From the IMG/VR virus record IMGVR_UViG_3300025127_000271, positions 1 to 24,210 of that record: a stretch of DNA of 24,210 nt; one strand, written 5' to 3'. Shown here one piece after another: positions 2,747 through 20,932 of the stretch. The translations under genes and the position numbers were made by a program. Under the pieces are notes generated by a model that was not told where the DNA came from, ran no database searches, and saw only the letters and a list, made by a program, of their open reading frames with translations. Source of the DNA: a virus. Each line of letters opens with the position of its first letter. The stretch's first letter is position 1.

Positions 2747-2748
2747 TT

Positions 2749-2898
2749 ATGGCAGTACGCACAAAGGTTGGTGTTCTTGGAAGAGAAGAAACCATTACAA
2801 GACCGAAGAAAACTCGACAAGGAACAGGAAAGCATACAAAGTATTCCGCAACGTCGCGTAACTCGGCTCGCAAGAAGTACAGAGGTCAGGGTCGTTGA
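2749..2898 (+). CDS. Very basic small protein (49 aa)
   Basis: The ORF encodes MAVRTKVGVLGREETITRPK followed by KTRQGTGKHTKYSATSRN and SARKKYRGQGR. About 15 of 49 residues are Lys or Arg with only two acidic residues, so it should bind nucleic acid or another polyanion. The Gly/Ser-containing tail and lack of a hydrophobic core suggest a disordered or partner-folded protein. I recall similar short basic proteins in marine T4-like phages but no established function. It lies 2 nt after the preceding gene and shares its stop region with the next start (TTGA overlap), which supports real translation. Ribosomal-protein-like, RNA-binding or DNA-packaging roles are all possible. Confidence 0.65.
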   Translation: MAVRTKVGVLGREETITRPKKTRQGTGKHTKYSATSRNSARKKYRGQGR

Positions 2899-3047
2899 AC
2901 TGTTGGCACTGTGGAACTGAGTTGATTTGGGGCGCGGATCACTCGATGGAAGATATAAATGATGGAGAAGAGTCTGAATATGACTTTTTCTCCAATTTTA
3001 CGTGTCCAAAATGTAATTCATACGTCGAAGTTTATCATCACAAATAA
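2895..3047 (+). CDS. Zinc-ribbon small protein with TTG start (50 aa)
   Basis: The frame reads (M)NCWHCGTELIWG, an acidic middle, then NFTCPKCNSYVEVYHHK. CxxC (residues 3-6) and CPKC (37-40) form a clear pair of zinc knuckles about 30 residues apart, as in rubredoxin-like zinc ribbons. Small proteins with the start MNCWHCxTELIWGxDH are common in cyanophages; function is unknown, with DNA, RNA or protein contacts all plausible. TTG (2895-2897) is chosen as start because it places the conserved NCWHC at the N-terminus and overlaps the preceding TGA as TTGA. The only in-frame ATG (2946) would lose the first knuckle. Its stop overlaps the next start (TAATG). Confidence 0.75.
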   Translation: MNCWHCGTELIWGADHSMEDINDGEESEYDFFSNFTCPKCNSYVEVYHHK

Positions 3048-3757
3048 TGTCTTGTTTAATTACGAACTTACCTTCCTATGAAGTATGGGTAAGAAAGGAA
3101 TATTTAACCGACCATAAGAGTGGTCATGGCGAATTTGTTAAAGGAGTCTGGGTTTCTGCGAAAAGTATACCTGGTCGTGCCTTTTATTTTGAAACATATC
3201 TACCAGAATATGCGGCAATGTTCGATAAACTGCCAATTTCCGCTTTTCTCTCGTCTCCGGAGATACCCGATCCGGATATGACACTGCATAATCTCCAATT
3301 TTGGAACTGTATGGACTATGGAGTCGTTGCAGTACAGAAACAATTCATCGGAAGTATGCATTATGAGGTGTATACAAGGGACTTTGGTAACCAAACAGGC
3401 ACTTATATCTGTACTTTGGACAATTATCACCAAGATGTAGACGCAATTGACTACTCAACAAGTGAACAACCTGCCGAACATAAGTCTCATAACCTGTTAG
3501 AACTCGATAATGGGCAATTTTGTCTCTATCCAAACAACAGAATGAGGATTTATGACAACAGTATCACTCCTGAGACACCAAAAGTGCCCGATTTTAAGGT
3601 TTCAACCGTATATTATCAGGTTGAAAACGGTCATGATCGTGATGGATTAGGTTCAGAAGAGAATTATTTCTGGAAAACTGCAAAAGAAAGGGCAGTTGGT
3701 GATGTTGGAGTCGGAAATACTGCAATTGAGATTGATATTGAACCAGAATTAGGATGA
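3047..3757 (+). CDS. Unrecognised 236-aa protein upstream of speD
   Basis: I do not recognise the family with confidence. The protein starts MSCLITNLPSYEVWVRKEYL and is rich in aromatic residues (many Tyr, Phe and Trp), with no signal peptide, no transmembrane segment and no obvious catalytic motif. Visible landmarks are FYFETYLPEYAAMF (about 47-60), HNLQFWNCMDYG (about 81-92) and an acidic C-terminus ending in IEIDIEPELG. The composition and long strand-like stretches suggest a soluble, globular, beta-rich protein. It is tightly embedded: its start overlaps the zinc-ribbon stop by one base and its stop overlaps the speD start (ATGA). A structural or assembly protein at the edge of the baseplate cluster, or a partner of SpeD, is possible but unproven. 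Confidence 0.7.
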   Translation: MSCLITNLPSYEVWVRKEYLTDHKSGHGEFVKGVWVSAKSIPGRAFYFETYLPEYAAMFDKLPISAFLSSPEIPDPDMTLHNLQFWNCMDYGVVAVQKQFIGSMHYEVYTRDFGNQTGTYICTLDNYHQDVDAIDYSTSEQPAEHKSHNLLELDNGQFCLYPNNRMRIYDNSITPETPKVPDFKVSTVYYQVENGHDRDGLGSEENYFWKTAKERAVGDVGVGNTAIEIDIEPELG

Positions 3758-4104
3758 AACACGTAAAAAATGCTCATATGGGTCAACATTTACTTGTTGA
3801 AGTGTATAATGTGCCCTATGAAAAGTTAAATGATCCATTAAAACTCAAAGAAGTGTGTCTCAAAGCATGTAAAATTGAAAATTTACAGGTTTTGAACAAT
3901 TATACTCATCAATTTGACCCACAGGGAGTGACTTGCACTGTAACTTTGGCAGAAAGTCACCTCTGCTGCCATACTTGGCCAGAAAAAGGGTGTGTAGCGT
4001 TTGATATTTTCACTTGTGGGAACAAAAATCCAAGAATGGTTGCTTTATGGTTGCTTGAATATTTCGATACAGAAGATTATGTGATGAAAGACATAAATAG
4101 ATAA
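3754..4104 (+). CDS. speD: S-adenosylmethionine decarboxylase proenzyme (SpeD)
   Basis: This is the class 1B prokaryotic AdoMet decarboxylase (116 aa, typical short size). The enzyme decarboxylates S-adenosylmethionine to give the aminopropyl donor for spermidine synthesis. The proenzyme cleaves itself between Glu and Ser, and the Ser becomes the pyruvoyl cofactor. AESHL (66-70) gives the cleavage pair E67-S68; H73 in HTWPEKG and C88 in DIFTCG match the processing histidine and proton-donor cysteine, with the same spacings (5 and 20 residues from the Ser) as S63, H68 and C83 of the Thermotoga enzyme. The catalytic set is complete, so it is probably active. speD is a known auxiliary metabolic gene of cyanophages and could alter host polyamine pools during infection. 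The start overlaps the preceding stop by 4 nt (ATGA), and late-promoter-like sites follow the gene. Confidence 0.95.
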   Translation: MKHVKNAHMGQHLLVEVYNVPYEKLNDPLKLKEVCLKACKIENLQVLNNYTHQFDPQGVTCTVTLAESHLCCHTWPEKGCVAFDIFTCGNKNPRMVALWLLEYFDTEDYVMKDINR

Positions 4105-4263: not shown

Positions 4264-4665
4264 ATGGCAATCACAAGGATATCAAGGTCTTTTAAGGACA
4301 TTAGTCTGTCTTTTGAGCCTCATCCTGTGACAAAAGATCTTCCTGTTCTTAAAAATGAGAGAGCAATCATAAGATCAGTGAGAAATATCGTTGAAACGAT
4401 ACCTACGGAGAAATTTTTTAATTCTACATTCGGTTCTGACGTATATCGTAGTTTATTTGATTTTGTAGACTTTGGTACTGCATCAATAATACAAGAACAA
4501 ATAAAAACTGCTTTACATAACTTTGAAAGAAGAATTAATAATGTAAAAGTTGAAGTAGAACCTCGTCCTGATGATAATGATTTTGAAATTACAGTAATTT
4601 TTGATATTATAGGTCAAGATTTCCCTAAACAAGAATTTTCATTCATTCTCGAAGCAACACGATAA
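4264..4665 (+). CDS. 25: Baseplate wedge subunit gp25
   Basis: This 133-aa protein matches the T4 gp25/GpW family in length (T4 gp25 is 132 aa) and layout: an N-terminal region (SFKDISLSFEPHP), the helix KNERAIIRSVRNIVET, the loop PTEKFFNSTFGSDV, and the C-terminal beta region FERRINNVKVEVEPR. In contractile-tail phages gp25 joins gp6 and gp53 in the baseplate wedge and is placed to start sheath assembly. The family is sometimes called lysozyme-like for its fold, but no catalytic role is expected. The gene follows late-promoter-like boxes, starts with an A-rich leader rather than a Shine-Dalgarno, and is separated from gp6 by 3 nt. Confidence 0.92.
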   Translation: MAITRISRSFKDISLSFEPHPVTKDLPVLKNERAIIRSVRNIVETIPTEKFFNSTFGSDVYRSLFDFVDFGTASIIQEQIKTALHNFERRINNVKVEVEPRPDDNDFEITVIFDIIGQDFPKQEFSFILEATR

Positions 4666-4668
4666 AAA

Positions 4669-6600
4669 ATGCCAACAACAAAGTTTACAAATTTAGATTT
4701 TGATCAAATCAAAACGTCAATTAAAGATTATCTACGAGCAAACAGTGATTTTTCCGGATTTGACTTTGAAGGATCGAACTTTTCTGTATTACTTGATACA
4801 TTAGCGTATAATACATACATAACTGCATTTAACTCAAATATGATCGTGAATGAGTCTTTTCTGGACTCTGCAACGCTCCGTGAGAACGTTGTTTCACTTG
4901 CACGTAACATTGGGTATATACCTCGATCAAGGACTGCTGCAAAGGCACAGGTATCCTTTAAGTTAAATTTAGGAACAACAGAACCAAGTTCAAATACAGT
5001 TGAACTTACGAAAGGTATTGTATGTGTTGGAAGCGTAAATGATTCATCTTTCATATTTTCAATATCTAATAATATTGCTAAACAGGTTGAACAGGAAGGT
5101 AATGATTATATTGCAAATTTTGATAATCTTACAATAAATCAAGGAACATATTTAACCAAACAGTTTAAATTTGATAATTCATTAGATCAGAAGTTTATAT
5201 TAGATAATTCTTTCATAGATACATCAACAATTCATGTATATGTTAAAAAAGAAAATGAAAGTGGTCTTGGATACGAATATTATATTTCTGATGATATAAC
5301 CGATATTGATTCAACTTCCAGAGTATTTTTCTTACAAGAGGTTCAAGATGAAAAATATGAAATTAGATTTGGAGATGGAATATTAGGTAAAAAACTAGGT
5401 AGTGGCACAGAGCAAGATGGAACAATAATAACTGTTGATTATATCGTATCAGATGGTGTTGATGGTAATGGTGCATCTTCTTTTTCATTCTCTGGAAATG
5501 TAATTAATACCGTAACAGAAAGTTCTATTACTCTTGCATCATCTCCCGTAGTTACAACAATAACAAAATCGGAGGGTGGATCTAATATTGAACCAATAGA
5601 TTCTATAAAGTATTATTCACCTAAAATATACTCTTCACAAAATAGAGCAGTTACTCCCAGAGACTACGAGGCTATAATAAAAAGAATATATCCAGAAACA
5701 GAATCAGTATCAGTCGTTGGTGGTGAAGAATTAAATCCTCCTGAGTTTGGAACAGTTCAAATAAGTATAAAACCTAAGTCTGCAACATATATTTCAGATT
5801 TTACAAAGTCTAGAATTATATCTCAGTTAAAAAAATATAGTGTTGCTGGTATAAATCAAAAACTGATTGATTTAAAAATATTATATGTCGAACTTGATAT
5901 ATCAACATATTATAATTATTCTCAGGTTTCAACCGTTGATACTCTTAAAACTAAAATTATTAATGCGTTAACTAAGTATTCACAATCTATAAACTTCAAT
6001 AGATTTGGAGGTAGGTTCAAATACAGTAAAATGTTACAAGTTATTGACAAAACTGATACAGCAATTACAAGTAATATTACAAAAGTCATAATCAGAAGAG
6101 ATTTGAAGGCAACGGTTAATCAATTTGCACAGTATGAACTATGTTTTGGAAATAGATTTCATGTTGATCCAAATGGGTTTAATATCAAGTCAACAGGATT
6201 CTTTGTTCCAGGTGAATCATCTCCTGTTTATATTACAGATATTCCAAACGCAGATGGTCAAACTGGTGTATTGTCAATTGTTAAACCGATTGATGATGGT
6301 GAAATCAGAGTTGTAAGTAAATCTGCGGGTGTTGTGGATTACATTCATGGTGAGGTAAAGTTGACAACAATCAATATAATATCCACTGTTAAAGAAAATG
6401 ATGTTATTGAGATTCAAGCGTTTCCAGAATCGAATGATGTGGTTGGTTTGAGAGATTTATACCTCGAATTAAGTGTTTCAAAAAGCACCATAAATATGAT
6501 TAGGGATGTGATTGCATCTGGTGACGAAATATCAGGAACACAGTTTGTGAGAGATTATTACACTTCAAGTTATTCAAACGGAAAATTAATAAGAGAATAA
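4669..6600 (+). CDS. 6: Baseplate wedge subunit gp6 (baseplate J family)
   Basis: At 643 aa it is close to T4 gp6 (660 aa). The region around residue 326 (RAVTPRDYEAIIKRIYPE, then VVGGEELNPPEFGTVQISIKP) carries the T4 gp6 signature: an RAVT-x-x-DYE segment followed by a GGEE/PPxFG segment. The N-terminus (FTNLDFDQIKTSIKDYLRA, then LDTLAYNTYITAFNSNM) matches the start of baseplate J-like proteins, which often open with an 'LA.....' helix for wedge contacts. gp6 dimers link wedges into the inner baseplate ring. The C-terminal part (about 480-643) is more divergent and beta-rich. It starts 3 nt after gp25 and ends 1 nt before the giant gene, with no Shine-Dalgarno, so late co-transcription and coupled translation are likely. 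Confidence 0.92.
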   Translation: MPTTKFTNLDFDQIKTSIKDYLRANSDFSGFDFEGSNFSVLLDTLAYNTYITAFNSNMIVNESFLDSATLRENVVSLARNIGYIPRSRTAAKAQVSFKLNLGTTEPSSNTVELTKGIVCVGSVNDSSFIFSISNNIAKQVEQEGNDYIANFDNLTINQGTYLTKQFKFDNSLDQKFILDNSFIDTSTIHVYVKKENESGLGYEYYISDDITDIDSTSRVFFLQEVQDEKYEIRFGDGILGKKLGSGTEQDGTIITVDYIVSDGVDGNGASSFSFSGNVINTVTESSITLASSPVVTTITKSEGGSNIEPIDSIKYYSPKIYSSQNRAVTPRDYEAIIKRIYPETESVSVVGGEELNPPEFGTVQISIKPKSATYISDFTKSRIISQLKKYSVAGINQKLIDLKILYVELDISTYYNYSQVSTVDTLKTKIINALTKYSQSINFNRFGGRFKYSKMLQVIDKTDTAITSNITKVIIRRDLKATVNQFAQYELCFGNRFHVDPNGFNIKSTGFFVPGESSPVYITDIPNADGQTGVLSIVKPIDDGEIRVVSKSAGVVDYIHGEVKLTTINIISTVKENDVIEIQAFPESNDVVGLRDLYLELSVSKSTINMIRDVIASGDEISGTQFVRDYYTSSYSNGKLIRE

Positions 6601-6601
6601 T

Positions 6602-9600
6602 ATGATACAAACAGGTATTGAATCGAGAGTAAAAATACAAGATGTAATATCTTCTCAGCTTCCAAATTTTATTTTGGATGAAAGTCCAAAGACTGCTGAT
6701 TTTTTAAAACAATATTATATTTCACAGGAATTTCAAAGTGGAGTAGTTGATATTGCTGAGAATTTAGATCAATATTTAGATTTTGATAATTTAACTCCTG
6801 AAAAATTATTTAATGACACTACTTTATCCGTTGGTATAGGAACTCAGGAAGTAAATTCGATTTCAGTTTCTAATACAAAAGGATTTCCTAATCAGTATGG
6901 ACTTCTAAGAATAGATAATGAAATTTTAACATACACTGGTCTTACTACAAATACATTTACAGGATTAACTCGTGGATTTAGTGGTATAACAAGTTACCAT
7001 GATGAATTAAATGAAGAGGAGTTAATATTTTCAAAAACAAATGCTGGTGTGCATACAGCAGGTACATCAATTCAGAATTTAAGTTCATTATTTTTAGATG
7101 AGTTTTATAAAAAGATAAAATATACTTTTGCACCAGGATTTGAAAATTTAAATTTTGATAAAAATTTAAATATTGGTAATTTTTTAAAAGAAGTTAAATC
7201 ATTCTATGAGACAAAGGGTACAGATGATGCTATAAAAATATTATTTCGTGTTTTATATGGAGTAGATCCAAAGATTATAAATCTAGAAGATTTGTTGTTT
7301 AAACCATCAGCAGCAGAGTATCTGAGAAGAGAAACAGTTATAGTCGAAGTTTTATCAGGAAATCCTATTGGATTAGTTGGACAAACAATCAAAAAAATAG
7401 AAAAGTTAAATGATCCAACAACACAAGCTTCTGTATCAGAGGTAGAACCATTTACAAGACAAGGAAAACAATACTATAAATTTTCACTTTTTATAGGATA
7501 TGGTGGTGCATCTCTTGTAGAGGGTAATTTTAAGATTACATCGAGTAGTAAATCCGTTGAAAGTATATCAATTGGTTCTTCGGTTCTTACAGTAGATTCT
7601 ACCATTGGATTTCCTTCTAGTGGTACAGTTTTATCTGGAATTAATACAATCTCATATAGTGAGAAAACAATAAATCAATTCTTAGGTTGTGCTGGTATAA
7701 CATCTTCAATTTCACCATCAGATAGTGTTTTTTCTGATGAAATATACTTTGGTTTTGAAGATGGTGATTTAACAAAAAAAGTTGAGTTTAGAATCACAGG
7801 TATTTTATCAAAGTTTAAACAAAAATCAGAAAATATAAAAGTCTCAGAAGGAGATATCATCACAATCAAAAATTTAGGTGATAAAGTACTTAATCCTACA
7901 ATCAAAAATAGAAAAGAAATTTTTGCTAATTCTTGGATTTATAATACATCATCATTTATAGAAATTGATGCATATGATGGCAGTAGTACATTTATATTAA
8001 AAAAACCAATTGATAGATCAATCTTCAAAGTAGGTGACAAAATAGAATTTGTAAATCAAAGTAGACCTGATGAAGTCATTTACCCAACTGCAACTGATCC
8101 ACAACCATACGTTAAAGATATATTTGGTTCAACAATAACAATTGAAGGTTTGCCATCAAATGGATTTCAAGGAACTACTTTAAAACGTATAAGGACTAAT
8201 TCAAATATAAGAAGAAAATTAAATAAAGCAAAAAGTATATCTGCTATTGTTAATAATAACCCATTACCACCCGTACCTATAAAATATGATATTACATCAG
8301 ATGTAACAAATGTATATTTTGATGATGACAGTGGATATGCAGCATCAAACTCATTACCATCTGCGAAAAATTCTAGCACACCAAATGCTCCGTTTTTTGA
8401 AGATATAAATTTTTCATTAAATAAAGTTACATTTAAAGATTTTCAAGATTTAAATCAAACCACTCAAAAATTCAAAACAATACAAATTGATGAACAAGGT
8501 AAAAATATTAAACTCATAACAGGTGATAAAGTATTCTATCAGTCAAGTGGTCTTACTTTTAATTCAGTTGGAGTTGGTCAAACTGCCCAAATCGTGGGAA
8601 TAGATACAGGAGCATATTTTATTCAAATTGTTGATGAAAATACTAGCAAAATAAGATTATACTCATCGAGATCATTTATACCAAGTGGCACGGCTTTGGA
8701 GTTAGATTTTCCGAAAGATAATGAGGGTAATGTAATTAGTGAAACACATACATTTACTTTATATTCACAAAGATCAAATTTAATAAGTCCTGCAAAATCT
8801 TTAAAGAAATTTCCCTTAAAACCCAGTTTAAAGGATGGAGGTGTTGATGTAACTTTACCTGGCACCATTGGTAAAATGATAAATGGTGTAGAAATATTTA
8901 ACTATAAAACAGATGATAAAATATATTATGGACCACTAAGTAATCTTAGTGTTTTATCAGGTGGTAGTGGATATGATGTAATAAACCCACCCAAGATAGA
9001 TATTGAAGAGGGTGTTGGAACTGGTGCTACAGCTGTTGTTAGTGTCAAAGGAAAAGTAGTAGATGCTTTTATTGATCCACAAGATTTTGATATTGACAAA
9101 GTAGTTTCTATTGGGATCACTGGTGGAAATGGATCTGGTGCTGTTTTAGAACCAATTATAGGAACAAGATCACGACAAATAGTGTTTGAAGCTGTCCCAT
9201 TTACTTCATCAAATGGATTTGGTGTAGATAGCACTGAAAAATCTCTCACATTTAAAACTCGTCATAATTTAAATTCTGGTGATAGAGTAATATACAGTTC
9301 TAATAGGCAAGTTTCAATAGGTCAAATTGCTGGTACTTTCGTACCAAATCATGAATATTTTGTAAGTGTTGTTAATGATAAAACTGTTCGATTTTACGAG
9401 TCTCAAACAGTGGCAGCAGCTGCTAAAGATAAAACAGATGCGATCGGTATTGCAGTAACAGCGGGAGGTATACAAAGACTTATTGTTGGATCTGTTAATA
9501 ATACGATTCTAGGTGTGAACGTTCTATCCGGAGGAGAGGGATATGAAAATAGAAAGTTATCAGTTCAACCATCAAATATATCAACAATTTTTAATAAAAT

Positions 9601-12600
9601 TAATTTCAATAATCATAATTTTAAAGATGGTGATAAAATCGTATATGAACATGATGGCACTACAATTACAGGATTATCAACAGTACCAAATCAGCAGTAC
9701 TTGGTAACAAGAATAGATAGTGATTCATTTAAATTATCCGATGCTGGCATTGGTGGAACATCATTAGTCAATTTTAATCAAAAGATATTTACCAATTTCG
9801 AGTCAACAGGTATAGGTACACAGATATTTAAATATCCAGATATAGTGGCAACAGTTGAATATCTAGGTATTGGTTCATTTGGAACAGAATTAGTTAATGC
9901 AAATATCACTCCCGTAGTAAAAGGTGAAATAAGTGATGTATATTTACTTAAAAAGGGATCAGGTTATGGATCTAGTATTCTAAATTTTGAAAATAGTCCA
10001 ATTATTAAAATTAAAAATGGTACTGATGGTTCAACTCCTGAGATAAAACCAATTATTAATTCAATCACTGGTGGAATATCAACAGTTTCAATCGGTAACT
10101 CAGGAACTAATTACTTTTCAACACCTGTAATTGAAGTAATTGATAGTTTAGGAATTGGTAATGGTGCAAAATTAAGAGTTGTGATGAATAAACAGAATGG
10201 GGAACTAACTGGTTCAATAGATCATGTAGAAGTTATATCCGCTGGAATTGGTTATTCAGAGACAACTACATCAATTCGTGTAATTCCATCTGGTGTTAAT
10301 GGTCTTATAAGTGCAAATGTTAGAGTTTTAAACGTAAATAATAATTTAAAATATGGAGATAGTTTGAGTAGGTTGGAGGAACATGAAGGTATTTTTCAAA
10401 ATGTTGTATGTGGATTCGATCGTATACCATTTAAAGATGAAGGATTTACCGCATCAAAAATAGTTGGATGGGCATATGATGGAAATCCAATATATGGTTC
10501 ATACGGATATGTAGATCCTGAAAAGAAAACTAATAATATTAAGTTATTAAAGAGTGGATATAGAGTGGATAATAATGCCATAATTGATAGACCAGTTGGA
10601 TTTGGCACTGGATTTTTTATTGAAGATTTTGTTTTTGATGGTAGTGGTGATTTAGATGAATTTAATGGAAGATTTGAAATAAATGATGATTATCCAAATG
10701 GTGTTTATGCATATCATGCGACAGGAATTATTACATCAGGAAGTTTTGCTCCAGCGTTCCCTTACTTCATAGGTGATAAGTATAGATCAAAATTTGAAAA
10801 AGATAATTTAATAATTAATCAATCATTCGACTTCTTTAACTCATCTCTAAGAAGAAATACTTTCCCATACAATGTTACTGAAAATAACGCTGGAAATGAT
10901 TTTATCAGTGAAGCAAATGCGATAAGGTCACAGCAAATTGAAATAGAGACAGTTGAATCTGGATCTGTAAATGATGTTGAGATAATTGAAGATGGAACTA
11001 ATCAGAAAGTTGGTGATGTGTTTAATTTCAATAATACAGGAACTAATGGTGATGGACTTATTGTAAAAGTTGAATCAATAAAAGGTGAATCAATAAACAG
11101 TATAACATCATTTTCTTTAAGTTATAACCAATCTGCTATCACTAAAAAAGATAATAATACTTTAAAAATTACAACTCCCGACAGTCATGATTTAACTAAC
11201 GGTGATTTGGTAGTAATATCAGGTTTAACATCATCACTATCACATGTAAATGGATCATATATCATAGGTATTTCATCAATTGTTTCCTCTGCTATTTCTC
11301 CCATTATTTCAAATGCAGGTGCTGCAACAACTGAGATTTACACTGATATTGCAACTGATGTAAAGGTTGGAGACAAAATACGTGCGGGAAATGAAACACT
11401 TACTGTATTAAACACATATGATCAACCAAATATAATTACCGTTCAGAGAGGTAATACTGGTTTATCACATACAGCAACAACACCCATTTATGTAATACCA
11501 GATTCATTTACAATAAAAAAATCTGCTAATAATTTTAATTCAACCGTTAACCAAAAAGTATTTTTCAATCCTATAAAGTCAGTTGGATTTGTTGGTGCTG
11601 CTGCTACTGCTGGTCGATCAAGAGAAATTGTATTTACATTTGGTGAAACAAGAATTACAAGAACGATTCCAGCAAAAGGAATATACTTAGAAAATCATCC
11701 ATTTGCAACAAATCAAAAATTAAAAGTCATAACAGATGGTAATCCGATAGGTGTATCGGACACAGCTGCTGGAACAATTTCTGCCATGCCAACAACTGTT
11801 TTTGCAGTTAGGAAAAATAAAAATGTTATTGGAATTAAAAAAACTATTGATGGAGATGAGGTATTTTTACATTCATCTATCAGTGGTTCAGCAGTTGCTA
11901 ATAAAGACACATACGCATTTGAAAGTGTATTTGTTCAAGAAAAAGTAAATGTTAAGAGTAATAAGAATATGGTTACCTTGGATTCAAGGTTCCATCAACT
12001 AAAAGATGATGATTTCATAGATTTAAATGTAATTACAAAAACATCAACTGGTATTGGAACATTATCAGAGGTGATAGTAAAAAGAGATCCTTTAAAAGAT
12101 AGTTTGATTTTAGATCCAGTTTCATGTGAAACGTCAGGTATTACAACGTCCTTACCTCCTGTGGGTGTTCAAACAGGTGCAAATGTAATAACATTAGATA
12201 ATCATAATTTTACAACAGGTCAAAAAGTAAATCTAATTTCATCAATTATTCCCGTAGGTTTAGGTAATAGTGATTATTTTGTAAATGTTGTTGATGATAG
12301 AACTTTCAGTTTATGCGATTCATTTGAAAATGCAACAGCAAATCCTCCAATAGTTGTTGGTATTTTATCAGCAACACAATCAGGAATTCATACATTTACT
12401 AAAATAAATCCACGAATATTTGTTGAAAAAGATAATGATTTAGTTTTTAATTTATCAGATTCATCTCTATCTGGATACAAATTTAAGGTATATTATGATA
12501 AAGAATTTAAAAATGAATTTGTATCAACTGGATCTAGCCAAGGTTTTAACACACCAGTGGGAATCATAACTGAGGGAGAGACTGGTTCTAAATTTACAAT

Positions 12601-15600
12601 AGGGTATGGAAAAAGTGTTCCTGATAAATTGTACTATAATATTGAAAAATTAGGTGTAGCAGTGACTGCTGATAACACTGTTAGACATTACTCTGAAATT
12701 GAATATGTAAAGAATAATTATAATGGTACTTTCAAAATATCAAATGTAGGTATTAACACATTCACATTTAGCAGTGTTAATGAATCGTTTAGAACTGTTA
12801 CTGACAAAACAAATTGTAAAGAATTATCTTACAGCACAACATCGGGAATTGTTACTGGTGCTATCAACTCTGTAAATATAGTTTCTGGCGGTTCAAATTA
12901 TAAAAAATTACCTACTTTTGTAAGTATTGGCACAACCACTGTAAATGATGTAAGTGTATTAGTTAAATCTAGCAACGTTGGTAATATTAAAAAGACAAGA
13001 GTTATAAATGAAGGTTTTGAGTATCCTTCTGATCCCACTTTACAACCAGAAGCACTTTTACCTAAATTTATCCAATTAAGAGGATCAAAGGCTATTTCAA
13101 GGGTTGATGTAGTTAATGGTGGTGCTAATTATATTACTCCACCAAAACTAATAGTTGTCGATACAGAAACAGGAGTCCCATTTAGTGATAGTCTATTAAC
13201 TGCAGAATTAACAGCACCAAAACTTACACCAGGATCTTCAATATTAAGTGTAAATATTGAAAAATCACCATCAGGTATATCTGTTGGTAATGTAGGTATT
13301 TTTGCCATCGATAATACAAACGGTGTAAGTATTCAAAAAGTAAATTCTACTGCTGGAACATCGACTTTTGATATTTTTATTACCACACCAGCGTTGGGAT
13401 ATACTGTTAATCCTTTTAAAACTGGTGATACTGTTTTCATTGAGGGATTACAAAAAGTTGGAGTTGCTGGATCTGGATTTAACTCCTCTGATTATGGATA
13501 TAAGTTATTATCAGTATCTAATTATGTGGATAGTGGAACCTTACATAAGGTAACAATAGATGTTTCACAATATACTTCAAACACTGGTGTTGCAGTTACT
13601 GATGTGGGAGGATTTGCTGACATTATTAATTCTAATGTGTATCCATCATTTAAATTAAATTTAGTTGAGGCAGGATTTAGAATTGGTGAAAAAATAATTA
13701 TAGATGATATTGAAAGAGATTTGACAGTTGTTGGATCGGGTGAAAATTTTGTTAAGTTGCAAGGTTTATATGAATTAAGTGCAGGTGATATTTTATTTGG
13801 ATCTATTTCTAGAAATAGAGCAAAAGCAACCGATGTATTTAATAATCAAGGTCAATTTGAAGTTAATTATTCATTAATAAAAGATTTAGGTTGGGAGACT
13901 AATGTTGGAAAACTAAATGAAGATATTCAAGTTTTACCTAATAACGATTATTACCAAAATTTAGCATATTCTATTCAAAGTCCAATTGAATGGGATGATT
14001 TGAAGAGTCCTGTTAATAATTTGGTACACACATCAGGATTTAAAAATTTTGCAGACACTGGAATTTCATCTTCCTCAAGTGCTTTTCCGATAAGAGGGAG
14101 TGCTAAGATAACAACTTTCTTAGATGTTTTACCAACATTTGCTGAGACAGTCAGAGTTGATACAATATACAATTTTGATAGAGCAAGAGATATATTTGTT
14201 GGTACTGGTTCAACCGATTTGAATATAGGTCAAAGATCTAAATTTATACAACTAAAAACTGTTAGTTTGACTGATTTTATTCAAGCAAAAACAAATAATG
14301 TTTTGAATATTGATGATATTAGTTCACGGTATTCCAATTTAAATAGTGATCCAAATTCATTCTTAGATGTAATACAGGTTCAACCTGCTGATGGTTTAAA
14401 TAGAGTTCTTGCGTTGGTAAAAAATCGTGACAATACTCAAACACAAATCGCAGAATTAATTATTTTAAATAATAACACTGGATCGTATCTTCTCGAAAGA
14501 AGTAAGTTAAGTTCAGAATCTGATTTTACAAAATTTGAATTAAAAACTGCATCCGGCAAAAACTTTTTAAGATTTACTCCATCAGATCAATTTAAATTTA
14601 ATGTTGATTATGATATCAAGCGAATTGAAACTAAATTTAATACGACCTTAACTGGAACAGGAACAAGTTCATTTGGTTTTGCAAATATAACAGGATCAGT
14701 TGTAAATGTTGGGGGTACAACTTCCTCTATTACTACTCCTATCATAAGCACACATGAATCTGATGCCCTATTCATAAAAACACAAGTCACTGATACTGTG
14801 ACTAATGAAATGAATTATATTGAACATTTAGTCGGAAGAGATGCAACAAATACATTTCTTACAGAAGCGTATTTTGATTCTAATCAAGGGACATTTAGTT
14901 CAAATATTTTAGCATCATTTAGTCCGTCACTTTCAGGAGTTGGTAATAGTATTTTATCATTTAATGTAACAAATTCAAGATTAAATCCAATTAGAGTTAG
15001 ATCAAATATTATTGGATTTGGTTCTATAACTGCTGGAATTGGCACGTATAGATTTTTAGCATCAGGTCAAGGTGATGGTAGTGAAAGAACACAATTAGTT
15101 GAATCTAAATTTGATCAGAAAACAGGCATAAGCACGATTGCTACGTTAGATAAAACTAAATTTATCGCTTTAAAAGCAACTGCCCATGTCGCAACTGCAA
15201 CATCAGAAGCTCTACATCAAGTATATGTTACACATAATGGTACTGAGATATTTACAAGTCAAAGTGAATATCTATCAGGAGTGAATGGTTTGCAGCAAAA
15301 TAATAATGCTAATTCTCCCTTAGGAATAGGAACTTTTCATGCCAAGTTTGTAGGTGATAATTTTGTTCTTGAATTCATACCAGATAATACAAATGGTATG
15401 AAAACGGTAAGATCTCTAAATGAGGTATTTTATTCATTTACTGATGAAAAATCTCAATCAGGATTTGTCAATCATCCAAATTCATTAGTATTTGGAGCAC
15501 TCACTCAATCATCAGACATAAGTTTCTATAACGCCCTAAATGGTGACCGAATAAACAGAAGAAACTTTGAATTAACAAATAATAATACTCCAATTTTTGC

Positions 15601-18600
15601 TAAGACATTTGATCCATCGGATACATCTATCGTAAACATCGGATCTGGTAAAACATTTACAATTAAGGATCATTTTTTCAGAACAAATGAAGAATTAATT
15701 TACACACCACAAGCATCTTTTGTTGGTGTTGGCACTACTGCGATGGTTTATAAAATTGGTGCTGGAAGCACTGCTTTTCTACCATCAAGAGTATTTGCAA
15801 TAAGAGAGAATGATGATAAATTTTCAATATCAATAACAAAAGGAGGAGATGCTGTCACACTTGTGGATGCGGGAGAGGGTAATAATCATCAATTTGAAAT
15901 GGCAAAAGGTCTTTCAAAATCTCTAATTACAATTGATGGTTTAGTCCAACATCCAATTGCTCAAACAGATTTAGTTCATCAACTTGTAGGAAATATAAGT
16001 GCTGCTTCATCTATATTCAGATTAAGTGGAATATCATCTATAAATCTTGAAGATATTATTAAAATAGATGATGAATACATTCGAGTAACAAATGTAGGAC
16101 TTGGAACAAATATAGTAGGTCCAATAGGAATTGCAACAGACATTCCAGCAACAATTCCTCTAATACAAGGTCAAAGAGGTTATGTTGGAAGTTCGGCTGC
16201 CACCCACAGTAACTCAAGTAATGTCAATATTTTTAAAGGTTCTTATAATATTGTTGGTAAAGAAATTCACTTCACTGAGGCACCAAGAGGTAATAATTCA
16301 ATCGATGTGGATGAATCAAATTTACCACCAGCAAGATCTGATTTCGAAGGTAGAGTTTATTTAAGAAATGATTATAGTACAAATAGAATATATGATGACA
16401 TTTCAAATAAATTTACAGGTATAACATCATCATTTGAATTGAAATCAGGTGGATCAGCAGCATCAGGTATTGGAACTATTGGAGGTAATGGCATTCTCTT
16501 TATTAACAATATATTCCAAAGACCATCAACTGATAATAATTCAAGAGGTAATTTCAAGATTATTGAAAGCGTAACATCTGGGGTAACTACAACAACAGTT
16601 CTTTTCTCCGGAATCACAACAGTAGCAGATGGAAGTCTTATTACAAGTGATACAGATATAAATCAAAATGAATTACCAAGAGGTGGGGTTATTGTTTCTC
16701 TTGGATCAACAGGAGGATTAGGATATGCACCATTAGTTCCAGCAAAGGTGAAACCTCAGGTAAACGCAGGTGGAACAATCACATCCATAGTTGGGGTAGG
16801 ATATAGTGGAGCAGTTAATGCAGCATCATCAGCATCATATGATAATGAGACAGGTGAAATGGAAATATTTACTACTAATAAACATTTTTTAAGAGTTGGA
16901 TATGATGATGAAGTTATCTTATCAGGATTTACGTTTAATCCAAGTATATCACTAATAAATCCCATTTCGAATGATAAATTCTCTGTTATTGGTATTACAT
17001 CAGAAAAAGCATTTAAAGTTAAACTTGGAATAAGCACTATCTCACATACTGTTAGTGGTGGAACTGTTCGACCTTGGTATGGAGATCTGACATTTGGTTC
17101 AGGATACAATATAGGTGTTACAACAAATGGTGTATCGGTCGCAGCAACGGTGTTTGATCCTGGTTATAATCATGATTTTGTAAGTGCGGCAACAAATGCA
17201 ATTAGTGTCACTGGTGGATCTAATTTTACTCCAACAGATGCAACATATGACCCAGTGACAGGAGATTTAGTTTTATTCATAAGTGGTGCTGGAATTCAAA
17301 CACATGGGTTAACTGAAAGTAATACTGTGTCAATTGCCACCAGTTCAATATCATTCACTTGTTCGAAAGACAATTACTTAACAATTCATCCTTATCCAAG
17401 ACCAACAGATCCTGTTGCAGGAATTGCAACTGCAATCACATCATATAACTCAGATACAATCACAGTAAATGTAGGTTCAAATGTAGGTTCAGGAGCGCAA
17501 GTCACTACAACAATCGGAACTGGTGGTGTTCTATCATTTAATGTTGTTAGTGGTGGATCAAATTATAAAGAACCAGAAATTTTTGTACCAAGTCCATCTT
17601 ATGATAACATGAAGATTGAAGGTGTTTCAAGAGTCGGTTTTGGAACAGGACCTGATACAGGAATCGGTGCATTAATTAGTGCAAGTGGAGTTACAACAAC
17701 AGGAGTTGCAAATTTTGAATTAAGTAGGAATGGGTATAATTTTAGAAAAGGTGATAAGTTTACACCAGTTGGTTTGGTTACTGACAAGAGTTTATCAAGT
17801 GCCGAAACTTTCGTCCTTGAAGTTAGAGAGGTATATCAAGATAATTTCTCATCTTGGCAATTTGGAGAATTTGACTATATCGATTCAATAGCACCTCTAC
17901 AAGACGGATCTAGAACAGTATTCCCATTATTATATAATGGAGAGTTATTAAGTATAATAGTAGATCCAGATTCAGATGTTATTGCTCAAAATATTTTACT
18001 TATATTTGTAAATGGTGTACTTCAAAGACCTGGTGATAACTATCAATTTGATGGAGGTACTCTATTATCATTTACCACTGCTCCATCAAGAGAAGATGAT
18101 GTTGCGATTTATGTGTATAGAGGAACATCAGGTGTTGACACAGTTATAAGCACAGATATCAACAAAACCTTAGAGGAAGGAGATGATGTCCAAATAGTAA
18201 GAAGTCCTGGCATAAGCACTTCTATCTCGCAGGACGAAAGAACTGTATTCCAACTTACCAGTAAAGATAGATTTGAAACTAACCTTTACACAGGGCAAGG
18301 AATAGATGATATTAATTTCAAACCTCTAAATGTATATAAGCAAAAGGTAGATAAAATTATTAATGGTAGAATTGTTCCAAAAACAAGAGATTCAATTGAA
18401 CCTCAAATATATCCTACTGCGAAGGTGATATCAAGTATTGCTTCTAATTCTGCCCAAATATATGTTGACAATGCTGATTTCTTCAACTATGAAGATGAGG
18501 GAAGTCCTGACTTTAGAGTTAAATTAATTCCCAATACTACTTTACCAACAGTTGGTTCATTAACAGCAACAATTTCTAATGGTCAAGTAAATGCGATAAG

Positions 18601-19330
18601 TATTGCTTCAAGTGGAAGTAATTATACATCTGCACCAACTATTAGCATCAGTGCTCCACCATCAATTGGAGTTGGAGTTGGAACAACTGCTACTGCAACA
18701 GTAACAGTAGGCAGTGGAGGTATTAATGGATTTACAATAACAAACGCAGGTTTTGGATACACAGTTGCTCCAAGTGTTCTTGTTAAACCTCCTGTATCAG
18801 AAAAGGAAATAATTAGAGTTCAAGCAGTTACTGGTTTTTCTGCAACTATCACTAGAATAATTGTAGGTGGAAGTGGTAGCACAACTATTACATTTAAAGT
18901 GACAAAAAATGATGGTACCAATTTTTCTGGTTTATCTAGTGGTGATTACATATTCATCAATAATACGACTTATGGTAATGGTGTTACATCATTAACACAA
19001 ACTGGTAATTCTAATGTGGGTGTCGGTACGACATCTTTTGATAATGTATATCAGGTATCAGCAGTTAATAATGTTTCTGGTGCGAACGCAGACGTGGTAT
19101 GTAAAGCAACTGTGACTGCTCCGGATAATTCATTAGACACTGGTGCTTTACCTAACGTTGGTACTTTATCATTTGGTAAATTATCATCTCTAAATAGATC
19201 TAGTTCACCTCTAACAGTAACCATTTCAGGGTTTACAGTGAACTCAGGTTTATCTACATTCCCATCAATTCAAAGGTCGAGTGGAGATTATACTCTTAGA
19301 AATACTGGTGCTTTACCTAAGACTCCATAA
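6602..19330 (+). CDS. Giant gp7-like baseplate/fibre protein with YHYH domain (4242 aa)
   Basis: This unbroken 12.7-kb frame fills the T4 gene 7 position between gp6 and gp8. Residues 201-206 (FYETKG), followed by LFRVLYG and by LVGQT (258-262), parallel the C-terminal core of T4 gp7 as I recall it (STKG..., LFKVLYN, LVGQT); T4 gp7 initiates wedge assembly. After about residue 300 the protein is a mosaic: four modules with an (I)D(N/D)E strand and a later RG turn (about 75-160, 320-365, 1580-1640, 3130-3210); about ten H-(N/D)-(F/L)-x-x-G-D modules; about ten GGxGY units; a YHYH domain (about 1255-1395); and two fibre-like 'FINGVLQRP' modules (about 3300 and 3800). The composition is rich in Ser, Thr, Gly, Val, Ile and Asn with few Cys, as in beta-structured virion proteins. 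T4 gp7 is only about 1030 aa, so this would be a greatly enlarged wedge protein that may reach out as a fibre. The start at 6602 follows the gp6 stop by 1 nt. Confidence 0.85.
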   Translation: MIQTGIESRVKIQDVISSQLPNFILDESPKTADFLKQYYISQEFQSGVVDIAENLDQYLDFDNLTPEKLFNDTTLSVGIGTQEVNSISVSNTKGFPNQYGLLRIDNEILTYTGLTTNTFTGLTRGFSGITSYHDELNEEELIFSKTNAGVHTAGTSIQNLSSLFLDEFYKKIKYTFAPGFENLNFDKNLNIGNFLKEVKSFYETKGTDDAIKILFRVLYGVDPKIINLEDLLFKPSAAEYLRRETVIVEVLSGNPIGLVGQTIKKIEKLNDPTTQASVSEVEPFTRQGKQYYKFSLFIGYGGASLVEGNFKITSSSKSVESISIGSSVLTVDSTIGFPSSGTVLSGINTISYSEKTINQFLGCAGITSSISPSDSVFSDEIYFGFEDGDLTKKVEFRITGILSKFKQKSENIKVSEGDIITIKNLGDKVLNPTIKNRKEIFANSWIYNTSSFIEIDAYDGSSTFILKKPIDRSIFKVGDKIEFVNQSRPDEVIYPTATDPQPYVKDIFGSTITIEGLPSNGFQGTTLKRIRTNSNIRRKLNKAKSISAIVNNNPLPPVPIKYDITSDVTNVYFDDDSGYAASNSLPSAKNSSTPNAPFFEDINFSLNKVTFKDFQDLNQTTQKFKTIQIDEQGKNIKLITGDKVFYQSSGLTFNSVGVGQTAQIVGIDTGAYFIQIVDENTSKIRLYSSRSFIPSGTALELDFPKDNEGNVISETHTFTLYSQRSNLISPAKSLKKFPLKPSLKDGGVDVTLPGTIGKMINGVEIFNYKTDDKIYYGPLSNLSVLSGGSGYDVINPPKIDIEEGVGTGATAVVSVKGKVVDAFIDPQDFDIDKVVSIGITGGNGSGAVLEPIIGTRSRQIVFEAVPFTSSNGFGVDSTEKSLTFKTRHNLNSGDRVIYSSNRQVSIGQIAGTFVPNHEYFVSVVNDKTVRFYESQTVAAAAKDKTDAIGIAVTAGGIQRLIVGSVNNTILGVNVLSGGEGYENRKLSVQPSNISTIFNKINFNNHNFKDGDKIVYEHDGTTITGLSTVPNQQYLVTRIDSDSFKLSDAGIGGTSLVNFNQKIFTNFESTGIGTQIFKYPDIVATVEYLGIGSFGTELVNANITPVVKGEISDVYLLKKGSGYGSSILNFENSPIIKIKNGTDGSTPEIKPIINSITGGISTVSIGNSGTNYFSTPVIEVIDSLGIGNGAKLRVVMNKQNGELTGSIDHVEVISAGIGYSETTTSIRVIPSGVNGLISANVRVLNVNNNLKYGDSLSRLEEHEGIFQNVVCGFDRIPFKDEGFTASKIVGWAYDGNPIYGSYGYVDPEKKTNNIKLLKSGYRVDNNAIIDRPVGFGTGFFIEDFVFDGSGDLDEFNGRFEINDDYPNGVYAYHATGIITSGSFAPAFPYFIGDKYRSKFEKDNLIINQSFDFFNSSLRRNTFPYNVTENNAGNDFISEANAIRSQQIEIETVESGSVNDVEIIEDGTNQKVGDVFNFNNTGTNGDGLIVKVESIKGESINSITSFSLSYNQSAITKKDNNTLKITTPDSHDLTNGDLVVISGLTSSLSHVNGSYIIGISSIVSSAISPIISNAGAATTEIYTDIATDVKVGDKIRAGNETLTVLNTYDQPNIITVQRGNTGLSHTATTPIYVIPDSFTIKKSANNFNSTVNQKVFFNPIKSVGFVGAAATAGRSREIVFTFGETRITRTIPAKGIYLENHPFATNQKLKVITDGNPIGVSDTAAGTISAMPTTVFAVRKNKNVIGIKKTIDGDEVFLHSSISGSAVANKDTYAFESVFVQEKVNVKSNKNMVTLDSRFHQLKDDDFIDLNVITKTSTGIGTLSEVIVKRDPLKDSLILDPVSCETSGITTSLPPVGVQTGANVITLDNHNFTTGQKVNLISSIIPVGLGNSDYFVNVVDDRTFSLCDSFENATANPPIVVGILSATQSGIHTFTKINPRIFVEKDNDLVFNLSDSSLSGYKFKVYYDKEFKNEFVSTGSSQGFNTPVGIITEGETGSKFTIGYGKSVPDKLYYNIEKLGVAVTADNTVRHYSEIEYVKNNYNGTFKISNVGINTFTFSSVNESFRTVTDKTNCKELSYSTTSGIVTGAINSVNIVSGGSNYKKLPTFVSIGTTTVNDVSVLVKSSNVGNIKKTRVINEGFEYPSDPTLQPEALLPKFIQLRGSKAISRVDVVNGGANYITPPKLIVVDTETGVPFSDSLLTAELTAPKLTPGSSILSVNIEKSPSGISVGNVGIFAIDNTNGVSIQKVNSTAGTSTFDIFITTPALGYTVNPFKTGDTVFIEGLQKVGVAGSGFNSSDYGYKLLSVSNYVDSGTLHKVTIDVSQYTSNTGVAVTDVGGFADIINSNVYPSFKLNLVEAGFRIGEKIIIDDIERDLTVVGSGENFVKLQGLYELSAGDILFGSISRNRAKATDVFNNQGQFEVNYSLIKDLGWETNVGKLNEDIQVLPNNDYYQNLAYSIQSPIEWDDLKSPVNNLVHTSGFKNFADTGISSSSSAFPIRGSAKITTFLDVLPTFAETVRVDTIYNFDRARDIFVGTGSTDLNIGQRSKFIQLKTVSLTDFIQAKTNNVLNIDDISSRYSNLNSDPNSFLDVIQVQPADGLNRVLALVKNRDNTQTQIAELIILNNNTGSYLLERSKLSSESDFTKFELKTASGKNFLRFTPSDQFKFNVDYDIKRIETKFNTTLTGTGTSSFGFANITGSVVNVGGTTSSITTPIISTHESDALFIKTQVTDTVTNEMNYIEHLVGRDATNTFLTEAYFDSNQGTFSSNILASFSPSLSGVGNSILSFNVTNSRLNPIRVRSNIIGFGSITAGIGTYRFLASGQGDGSERTQLVESKFDQKTGISTIATLDKTKFIALKATAHVATATSEALHQVYVTHNGTEIFTSQSEYLSGVNGLQQNNNANSPLGIGTFHAKFVGDNFVLEFIPDNTNGMKTVRSLNEVFYSFTDEKSQSGFVNHPNSLVFGALTQSSDISFYNALNGDRINRRNFELTNNNTPIFAKTFDPSDTSIVNIGSGKTFTIKDHFFRTNEELIYTPQASFVGVGTTAMVYKIGAGSTAFLPSRVFAIRENDDKFSISITKGGDAVTLVDAGEGNNHQFEMAKGLSKSLITIDGLVQHPIAQTDLVHQLVGNISAASSIFRLSGISSINLEDIIKIDDEYIRVTNVGLGTNIVGPIGIATDIPATIPLIQGQRGYVGSSAATHSNSSNVNIFKGSYNIVGKEIHFTEAPRGNNSIDVDESNLPPARSDFEGRVYLRNDYSTNRIYDDISNKFTGITSSFELKSGGSAASGIGTIGGNGILFINNIFQRPSTDNNSRGNFKIIESVTSGVTTTTVLFSGITTVADGSLITSDTDINQNELPRGGVIVSLGSTGGLGYAPLVPAKVKPQVNAGGTITSIVGVGYSGAVNAASSASYDNETGEMEIFTTNKHFLRVGYDDEVILSGFTFNPSISLINPISNDKFSVIGITSEKAFKVKLGISTISHTVSGGTVRPWYGDLTFGSGYNIGVTTNGVSVAATVFDPGYNHDFVSAATNAISVTGGSNFTPTDATYDPVTGDLVLFISGAGIQTHGLTESNTVSIATSSISFTCSKDNYLTIHPYPRPTDPVAGIATAITSYNSDTITVNVGSNVGSGAQVTTTIGTGGVLSFNVVSGGSNYKEPEIFVPSPSYDNMKIEGVSRVGFGTGPDTGIGALISASGVTTTGVANFELSRNGYNFRKGDKFTPVGLVTDKSLSSAETFVLEVREVYQDNFSSWQFGEFDYIDSIAPLQDGSRTVFPLLYNGELLSIIVDPDSDVIAQNILLIFVNGVLQRPGDNYQFDGGTLLSFTTAPSREDDVAIYVYRGTSGVDTVISTDINKTLEEGDDVQIVRSPGISTSISQDERTVFQLTSKDRFETNLYTGQGIDDINFKPLNVYKQKVDKIINGRIVPKTRDSIEPQIYPTAKVISSIASNSAQIYVDNADFFNYEDEGSPDFRVKLIPNTTLPTVGSLTATISNGQVNAISIASSGSNYTSAPTISISAPPSIGVGVGTTATATVTVGSGGINGFTITNAGFGYTVAPSVLVKPPVSEKEIIRVQAVTGFSATITRIIVGGSGSTTITFKVTKNDGTNFSGLSSGDYIFINNTTYGNGVTSLTQTGNSNVGVGTTSFDNVYQVSAVNNVSGANADVVCKATVTAPDNSLDTGALPNVGTLSFGKLSSLNRSSSPLTVTISGFTVNSGLSTFPSIQRSSGDYTLRNTGALPKTP
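8500..17400 (+). repeat. Array of H-N-F-x-x-G-D modules in the giant protein
   Basis: A module begins with His-(Asn/Asp/Gly)-(Phe/Leu)-x-x-(Gly/Asn)-(Asp/Gln)-x-(Val/Ile), and about 25-36 residues later has a strand such as YFV..V.D...F. Clear copies are near residues 887 (HNLNSGDRVIY), 1005 (HNFKDGDKIVY), 1529 (HDLTNGDLVVI) and 1868 (HNFTTGQKVNL). Diverged copies are near 641, 1699, 3024, 3427 and 3568. Spacing between copies is irregular, so they are mosaic modules rather than tandem repeats. Confidence 0.7.
10400..10785 (+). other. YHYH domain within the giant protein
   Basis: About residues 1267-1395 contain GWAYDGNPIYGSYGY, a later LDEFNGRFEINDDYPNG, then VYAYHATG and FPYFIG. This order (GxAYDGxPIYGPYGY, LDExNGRF, YPxGxYAYH, PxFPYxIG) is the signature of the YHYH family, found in bacterial secreted proteins and in large structural proteins of marine T4-like phages. 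Its activity is not established. Confidence 0.8.
16410..18125 (+). repeat. Two fibre-like modules with ILxFxNxxxQRP core
   Basis: The first module (from about 16410) has FTGITSSFELK, then GILFINNIFQRPS, then FKIIES and VLFSGI. The second (about 17896-18125) has QDGSRTVFPL, then ILLIFVNGVLQRPGDNY, then LLSFTTAPSREDDVAIYVYRG. The pattern 'F...NG.LQ.PG..Y......I.F..AP..GD.I' is common in phage tail-fibre proteins. The two copies are about 500 residues apart (cores near residues 3298 and 3799). Confidence 0.65.
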
Positions 19331-19335
19331 ACTGT

Positions 19336-19343
19336 TATAAATA
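19336..19343 (+). promoter_or_regulatory. T4-type late promoter TATAAATA before gp8
   Basis: An exact TATAAATA octamer lies 17 nt before the gp8-like ATG, in the 30-nt gap after the giant gene. A second exact TATAAATA (19354-19361) overlaps that ATG. The first is well placed to drive gp8 with a leader of roughly 10 nt; the second could only serve transcripts starting inside the gene. This is the best late-promoter match in the window. Confidence 0.7.
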
Positions 19344-19360
19344 TATAAAAAACTATAAAT

Positions 19361-20932
19361 ATGCCAGCCGTAGTTACAGATCAATTTAGAATATTTAATG
19401 CAAATAATTTTGTTGAATCTATATTAGACTCATCAAACTCTTATTATGTGTTTTTAGGTTTATCAAATCCAATCAAAGATACTAATCCTGGTTTTGGTAG
19501 AACAACCACTGCCAATTGGCCATCTGATCCAGTCGATAATTTCCAAAATCTTTCTCACAATAAAGACACAGTATTGTTTGGTAAGAAAATTTCTACTGGT
19601 AATATTAGAAGAGTGGTTAAAAGAAATAATTGGGTCGCAAACACTAGATATGATATGTATCGACATGATTATAGTATAACTAATCCATCTCCCAATTCAC
19701 AACAAGCAAGTCTTTATGAATCAAAATATTATGTCGTAAATAGTGATTTGAGAGTTTATGTGTGTATTGATAATGGATCATCAGGTGCAGTAGGATCTGA
19801 TTCAGCAAAAGGTGGTAATTCACTCGATGAACCAACTTTTACTGATACTGAACCCTCTGCTGCTGGTACAAGTGGTGATGGATATGTATGGAAATACCTT
19901 TTCACAATTTCTCCAAGTGACATTATAAAATTTGATTCGACAGAATTTATAGCGTTACCAAATGATTGGCCAACATCAACTGACTCTCAGATTCAGATTG
20001 TAAGAGAAGCAGGAGATTCTCGTATAAACAATAATCAAATTAAAAAAGTTTATATAGAAAATAGTGGCAGTACCACTACTCCTGTTTATCAACAGGGTGA
20101 CCATTCTCTGGATATTCTAGGAGATGGAACAGGTGGAGTTGTAAATGTAACCGTCAATACGAGTGGAAAAATTACTAAAACTATCGTTACAAGTGGTGGA
20201 ACTGGATATACTTATGGTATCGTGGATTTAGATCCAATTCATGTTACAAATTCGATTGCATTGGTGGATAGAGCAAAATTAATACCTATAATACCACCAT
20301 CAAGAGGACATGGATTTGATTTATATACGGAATTAGGTGCAGACAAAATTTTGATTTACACTAGATTTGATGATTCTACACCAGATTTTCCAACAACCAC
20401 AAAATTTTCACAAGTCGGAATACTTAAAAATCCTTCAAGATTTTCAGATGAAAGTTCAGTTTTTGATGAAATAAACTTTTCATCTGCCTTTGCGATGAAA
20501 TTAACTGGTAATCCTGGTACAGTACCTGCTGTTGGAACTATCATATCTCAGGGATTAGCAAAGGGATATGTCACGTCATATAATACACAGACTAATGTCT
20601 TAAAATATTCGAGAGATAGGTCTTTGTATTTTGGAAATGATACACCAACAAATCAAACAGATTATATTGGAATAAGTTCTGCTAGTAAAATAACTGAATT
20701 TACTCAGGGCGGAGGAAATGTAGATCCTCTTGGAATTGGGATATCATCTTTTAGTGGTGGAACTTCTGTTGTTAACAACAAGATAGTTGATCTAGGAGTG
20801 ACTTTCACAAATGGTCTTGCAAATCCTGAGATAAATAAACAGACAGGTGATATAATTTATATTGATAACCGTGCCTTAGTTATAAGGGACGCAAGACAAA
20901 AAGAAGACGTTAAAATCATTCTGGAATTCTAA
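19361..20932 (+). CDS. 8: Enlarged gp8-like baseplate wedge subunit (523 aa)
   Basis: The landmarks of T4 gp8 are present in order: YYVFLGLSNP near residue 30, an IRRVVKRNNWVANTRYDMY block (about 82-100; T4 has IPRRDWGDTRY), GDGYVWKYLFTI (about 171-182; T4 GDGYVWEYLFEI), FSQVGILKNP (about 350) and the C-terminal GDIIYIDNRALVIRDA...QKEDVKIILEF (T4 GEMIYMENRPPI...TEEINILFTF). T4 gp8 is 334 aa, so roughly 190 residues are extra, in two blocks (about 200-325 and 360-485). The first block contains a GGTGY unit (about 285) of the type repeated in the giant protein. gp8 dimers join gp7 and gp10 in the T4 wedge. The gene has its own late promoter and is followed after 5 nt by the next gene. Confidence 0.88.
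   Translation: MPAVVTDQFRIFNANNFVESILDSSNSYYVFLGLSNPIKDTNPGFGRTTTANWPSDPVDNFQNLSHNKDTVLFGKKISTGNIRRVVKRNNWVANTRYDMYRHDYSITNPSPNSQQASLYESKYYVVNSDLRVYVCIDNGSSGAVGSDSAKGGNSLDEPTFTDTEPSAAGTSGDGYVWKYLFTISPSDIIKFDSTEFIALPNDWPTSTDSQIQIVREAGDSRINNNQIKKVYIENSGSTTTPVYQQGDHSLDILGDGTGGVVNVTVNTSGKITKTIVTSGGTGYTYGIVDLDPIHVTNSIALVDRAKLIPIIPPSRGHGFDLYTELGADKILIYTRFDDSTPDFPTTTKFSQVGILKNPSRFSDESSVFDEINFSSAFAMKLTGNPGTVPAVGTIISQGLAKGYVTSYNTQTNVLKYSRDRSLYFGNDTPTNQTDYIGISSASKITEFTQGGGNVDPLGIGISSFSGGTSVVNNKIVDLGVTFTNGLANPEINKQTGDIIYIDNRALVIRDARQKEDVKIILEF

Follow-up and report, generated by a model that had tools for sequence, protein, structure and literature searches.

A frame of 4242 amino acids (aa) in a 24,210-base stretch of viral DNA encodes a giant protein that, as judged by profile comparison, is a homologue of the T4 baseplate wedge protein gp7. 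Its gp7 core is, according to the same comparisons, split into two anchors, with about 2,100 residues between them and about 1,740 residues after the second. We regard it as probable that the product is a gp7-type wedge scaffold, whose split anchors lie in the inner baseplate and whose beta-modular arms form the outer rim.

Genomic setting of the giant frame

The window, that is, the whole stretch of DNA analyzed, is the complete IMG/VR record IMGVR_UViG_3300025127_000271 (24,210 bases). Positions 6602-19330 of the plus strand form a single open frame free of stops, and the longest frames in shuffled sequences of the same composition had a mean of 86 aa and a maximum of 118. Third-position GC is low (0.09-0.16) throughout the frame. 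The gene order is gp25, gp6, the giant frame, gp8 and a DUF4815 gene (20938-), with a gp6-gp7-gp8 arrangement that is the same as in T4; the original prediction of one 12.7-kb frame at the T4 gene 7 position is thus borne out. The features of this region are as follows:

4264..4665, plus strand: gp25-like wedge protein, upstream neighbour (PF04965, E 2e-12)
4669..6600, plus strand: gp6-like wedge protein (PF21379, E 4e-17; phrog_219)
6602..19330, plus strand: giant gp7-type baseplate wedge protein, 4242 aa; phrog_2885 'baseplate wedge subunit' spans residues 2-4226
6629..6781, plus strand: anchor 1a, residues 10-60, predicted helix-turn-helix, putative counterpart of the gp6-gp7 core bundle
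6860..6988, plus strand: beta module of the 'GFP...I.Y' type, residues 87-129, separating anchor 1a from anchor 1b (repeat profile E 2e-22, strands in the model)
7094..7537, plus strand: anchor 1b, residues 165-312, FYETKGTDDAIKILFRVLYG helices and following strands, matched to T4 gp7 724-822
7586..7705, plus strand: second beta 'GFP...I.Y' module, residues 329-368 (E 1e-17)
8039..13849, plus strand: arm 1, residues 480-2416, modular insertion between the anchors (repeat modules, beta domains in the model)
10451..10723, plus strand: YHYH domain, residues 1284-1374, in arm 1 (Pfam PF14240, E 1e-24)
13850..14101, plus strand: anchor 2, residues 2417-2500, D-x3-YYQxLaYxIxS...H-x2-G, counterpart of the last part of phiM12 gp7 and, probably, of T4 gp7 865-918
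14339..19327, plus strand: arm 2, residues 2580-4242, C-terminal beta-modular arm (model; repeats at 4000-4094)
19361..20932, plus strand: gp8-like wedge protein, downstream neighbour (PF09215, E 1e-12)

The source of the window is a T4-like marine myovirus, probably with a cyanobacterial host. Directly upstream of the baseplate genes, positions 3754-4104 encode an S-adenosylmethionine decarboxylase (speD; PF02675, E 2e-32), and speD is an auxiliary metabolic gene known from cyanophages. Positions 3047-3757 match phrog_3704, which is labelled 'ferredoxin'; this label looks doubtful, because the 236-aa product shows neither a Pfam match nor an obvious ferredoxin cysteine motif. In addition, a terminator-like hairpin (GGGGG..CCCCC) is found at 1264-1300, just after a DUF6267 gene.

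Two gp7 elements and the arms around them

The first gp7 element (anchor 1, residues ~1-312) was compared with T4 gp7 by profile-profile alignment with hhalign. Residues 191-312 aligned with T4 gp7 724-822 with a probability of 94.8% and an E-value of 5e-8, and a broader anchor 1 profile gave 94.1%, the E-values ranging overall from 5e-8 to 1e-7; the controls, namely 10 further structural proteins of T4, 10 profiles with shuffled columns and one reversed profile, reached a maximum of 1.3%. The original prediction had described the first ~300 residues as gp7-like, and the homology stands, with the correction that the match is to the C-terminal third of T4 gp7 (724-822) and not to its N-terminus. 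Searched against the whole T4 genome, the anchor 1 profile gave a single match, the gp7 frame (E 2e-5), and tblastn at E<=10 picked out gp7 in many enteric T4-like phages, at residues 154-296. Furthermore, the gp7 of Sinorhizobium phage phiM12 serves as a bridge: its own residues 8-202 match T4 gp7 642-827, and its residues 65-145 and 9-70 match the window protein, the latter in the alignment with anchor 1a (E 1e-4). Anchor 1a falls at the expected place on T4 gp7 (645-678), with a score below significance.

Pfam Gp7_helical, Gp7_5th and Gp7_6th gave no match in the window protein; these models were not taken as family-defining, because they describe the domains of T4 itself and also miss the annotated gp7 of P-HM1. 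NCBIfam gave no match to the N-terminal 367 residues, and a sequence search of the N-terminus against solved structures returned chance matches only.

The predicted structure of residues 1-480 (mean pLDDT 73, pTM 0.44) shows helices at 6-59, which in anchor 1a are resolved as 6-19, 22-27, 31-43 and 51-59, then a beta module (72-145) and further helices (161-219), in a domain arrangement that stays a model prediction because of the pTM. The top three PDB matches in Foldseek were 9f4a_A0 (1031 aa), 5iv5_BJ (1004 aa) and 5hx2_A (1030 aa), from the baseplates of a Klebsiella phage (9f4a) and of T4 (5iv5 and 5hx2). Judged by length and source, all three chains are gp7; since the TM-scores are low, these matches speak for local fold and order only and not for overall shape.

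The second gp7 element, anchor 2 (residues ~2417-2500), matches pelagiphage Mosig (E 5e-35) and phiM12 (E 5e-21) in profile searches. All eight T4-type gp7s compared were matched at one place, with E-values of 2e-5 to 3e-3, or 2e-4 to 0.02 if a larger database is assumed. Against the whole T4 genome the sole match was gp7, at residues 865-918 (E 2e-4), and in the six whole phage genomes searched with anchor 2 the gp7 gene was the only match. Family-versus-family comparison gave a probability of 51%, with shuffles at 0.3% or less. The reverse search from T4 recovered the anchor 2 place in nine relatives, mostly at non-significant level, and did not match the window protein. A narrow profile of close relatives only aligned the same T4 residues at a non-significant 0.3%, so that the T4 link of anchor 2 rests on the broad profile. 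The Q, Y, H and G of anchor 2 are invariant in 21 diverse sequences, and identity to the three closest relatives peaks there, at 77-83% versus 50-78% in the arms. The segment modelled alone gave low confidence. On these alignments, anchor 2 can be assigned firmly as a phiM12-type gp7 element, and it is probably the counterpart of T4 gp7 865-918, between Pfam domains V and VI. A core confined to ~300 residues and followed by an extension of ~3900 residues, as initially proposed, does not agree with a second gp7 element at ~2417-2500.

The likeness to T4 gp7 (1032 aa) therefore comprises the KGT element (724-822), probably 865-918, and the position between gp6 and gp8. The two proteins differ in that the ~640 peripheral N-terminal residues of T4 gp7 have no counterpart in the window protein, and in the spacing of the two elements, which is ~45 aa in T4 and ~2,100 in the window protein.

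The remaining sequence is modular, as had been predicted: three repeat types scored above threshold (seven copies of 'GGxGY..P', seven of 'HNxxxGdxv...yfV' and two of 'GFP...I.Y.g'), and the YHYH domain was recovered. Beta-domain models of good confidence were obtained for residues 2149-2419 and 2580-3000 (positions 14339-15601), the latter all-beta. Structure matches of residues 2060-3000 include predicted cyanophage tail-fibre structures (BFVD). The arms show no secure likeness to solved structures, and searching these structures with the C-terminal sequence brought up chance matches only. The same 2060-3000 model weakly resembles, in fold only, T4 gp9 (1qex), the long-tail-fibre connector (Foldseek probability 1.00, E 4e-3), and also chain LA of 9f4a (probability 0.92, E 0.05). 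We do not claim a gp9-like fold in this segment, as sequence comparison gave only 0.2-0.3%.

Relatives and length series

The relatives of the window protein are cyanophage proteins, and GenBank entries label relatives 'baseplate wedge initiator'; identity over the first 367 residues is 58% for S-SKS1, 50% for P-SSM2 and 48% for ACG-2014f. Their lengths include 5195 aa in P-SSM2, 4225 in ACG-2014f, 4446 in P-HM1, 3048 in S-PM2 and 6076 in syn9. The family is already filed as PHROG 2885, and giant versions are present in databases. The PHROG 2885 proteins of P-HM1, ACG-2014f and P-SSM2 share gene position and anchors with the window protein, which the profile matches over its full length; nothing essential differs, and N-terminal identity does not exceed 58% among the phage records listed.

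Eight relatives have uninterrupted frames of 4005-4535 aa, and the C-terminal 876 aa show 63-65% identity in the three closest relatives, like the rest of the arm. Since the C-terminus is conserved and frame lengths are kept, the arms are more likely to be a structural part under conservation than a receptor tip that evolves fast. In S-SKS1 (HQ633071.1, 16001-26186) the gp7-type gene lies in three frames (707, 1571 and 1062 aa), the first two unannotated; these breaks are likely sequencing errors, because a single unbroken protein would fit the space from gp6 to gp8 (4141 aa).

In all 223 frames that contain both anchors, anchor 1 comes first, and anchor 2 is never duplicated; this order is a statement of consistency and not an independent test, because the profile was built partly from those sequences. 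The 223 frames range from 503 to 6076 aa in whole length, with inserts of ~200 to ~2,500 aa between the anchors. Intermediates with the anchors in order are Yut2 (503 aa), Cr30 (767), Mosig (874) and phiM12 (1007), and likewise the longer S-CREM2 (1937), S-PM2 and syn9, the last with ~500 extra aa between anchors 1a and 1b. At the place of arm 1, the compact gp7s of Yut2, Cr30, Mosig and phiM12 are much shorter. The proteins of phiM12, Caulobacter phage Cr30 and Stenotrophomonas phage Yut2 carry the same anchors in the same order from the N-terminus; they differ from the window protein in their much shorter inserts, in having anchor 2 near the C-terminus and in lacking the long second arm. In Mosig (14983-20218), the gp6-gp8 interval is divided between one short gene of the gp7 type and several further, small tail genes, compared with the single giant gene of the cyanophages.

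Two relatives have been found in purified virions by mass spectrometry, as expected from the original prediction of a structural protein: S-CREM2 gp122 (1937 aa) with 91 unique peptides (PMC10665884), and S-SZBM1_208, a 'baseplate wedge initiator' of 6619 aa, with 71 peptides (PMC9146016).

Proposed role and alternative explanations

The T4 baseplate has six gp7 monomers, one per wedge, each in contact with a gp6 dimer (PMC3004832). For the giant protein we infer a baseplate position and six monomeric copies. In each of the six wedges, anchors 1a and 1b would lie with two gp6 chains in the core bundle and the trifurcation, an arrangement shared with other contractile tails; the expected partner is the gp6-like product of 4669..6600. 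At anchor 2 the same chain would come back to the inner baseplate, near the place of T4 gp7 domains V-VI, so that the stretch of ~2,100 residues from one anchor to the next would loop out as one arm and the ~1,740 residues after anchor 2 would form a free C-terminal arm. If the T4 copy number holds, one chain of ~460 kDa (scaled from 724 kDa for 6619 aa) would be pinned to the ring twice in each wedge. The arms would lie in the outer rim, carrying or bracing fibres, and would replace the N-terminal domains of T4 gp7 and at least part of gp9-gp11.

The original prediction had the extension replace gp9-gp12, and this is upheld as a correlation only. The gp9/gp10 and gp11 families were undetected in P-SSM2, ACG-2014f, P-HM1, S-PM2, S-CREM2, S-SKS1 and phiM12. 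Arm size and loss of gp9-gp11 are not strictly linked, because phiM12 lacks these families with a gp7 of 1007 aa and syn9 retains a protein of the gp9/gp10 type together with a gp7 of 6076 aa. Rim functions may have passed to the arms.

Peripheral attachment to a core-bundle subunit has been described elsewhere. In Vibrio phage XM1, tail spikes are bound by a core-domain loop and by the C-terminus of the gp7 homologue (PMC10457771), and in AlgoCIS the gp7-like part was called an evolutionary hotspot (PMC8894135). XM1 gp17, of 242 residues only, and the gp7-like part of Alg12 are, by their published descriptions, core-bundle wedge subunits whose periphery binds spikes or fibres. The XM1 spike-binding sites are the same kinds of place as the additions in the window protein, which suggests, by analogy, structural equivalence.

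A bolder version of the scaffold reading is possible, although we put it forward tentatively: one gp7 chain per wedge would leave the ring as the ~2,100-residue loop, re-enter at anchor 2 and leave again as a ~1,740-residue arm, making up the whole outer rim, with a loop that can be expanded freely (503 to >6,000 aa in whole proteins) and possibly a gp9-like domain absorbed in arm 2.

The protein could instead be a host-contact fibre, in which a single unbroken extension of fibre size follows a gp7 core of ~300 residues. This is suggested by the likeness of the beta domains after anchor 2 to predicted cyanophage tail-fibre domains (BFVD), by the annotation of the syn9 homologue as 'putative fiber' and by the recurrence of the window's modules in other phage tail proteins. 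However, T4 gp7 is monomeric, in contrast to the trimeric gp12, gp34, gp36 and gp37 (PMC3004832), and a hypervariable tip was not found at the conserved C-terminus. We consider this unlikely and reject a fibre fused to gp7 as the main reading, because anchor 2 is present and the variable tip is lacking; host contact, which the original prediction included, remains at the level of a suggestion.

Processing of the giant protein, with an N-terminal piece acting as gp7 and the remainder released as separate rim or fibre proteins, would accord with the Mosig arrangement, where an 874-aa gp7-type protein is encoded beside separate small tail genes, and the proteomics considered did not resolve the full length of the product. 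The uninterrupted frames of the eight relatives argue against it, and a cut between the anchors would part the two gp7 elements, since anchor 2 lies mid-protein; we judge it improbable. Finally, the published view is that pelagi- and cyanomyophages have no T4 gp7 and apparently use VrlC in its place (PMC7029224), which would make the giant frame an unrelated rim protein next to a VrlC-like neighbour that replaces gp7; this is very improbable and is largely refuted by profile matches, as the giant frame matches the gp7 profile, the Mosig gene beside gp6 matches the family N-terminal profile (E 3e-101) and phiM12 carries both gp7 and a separate vrlC-like gene.

On the Mosig match and the two phiM12 genes, the published absence of gp7 from cyano- and pelagimyophages should be revised. 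We found no description of a split gp7 core in the open-licence literature, and the split architecture seems to be the new part, in a layout that appears undescribed. No solved structure of a marine T4-like baseplate was found. Two sequence landmarks identify gp7 across T4-like phages, in proteins of 503 to >6,000 residues, and one wedge scaffold tolerates thousands of extra residues, inserted at defined points. How the baseplate of marine T4-like phages is built now becomes testable, both in the positions of the anchors and in whether the arms make up the rim or extend to the host.
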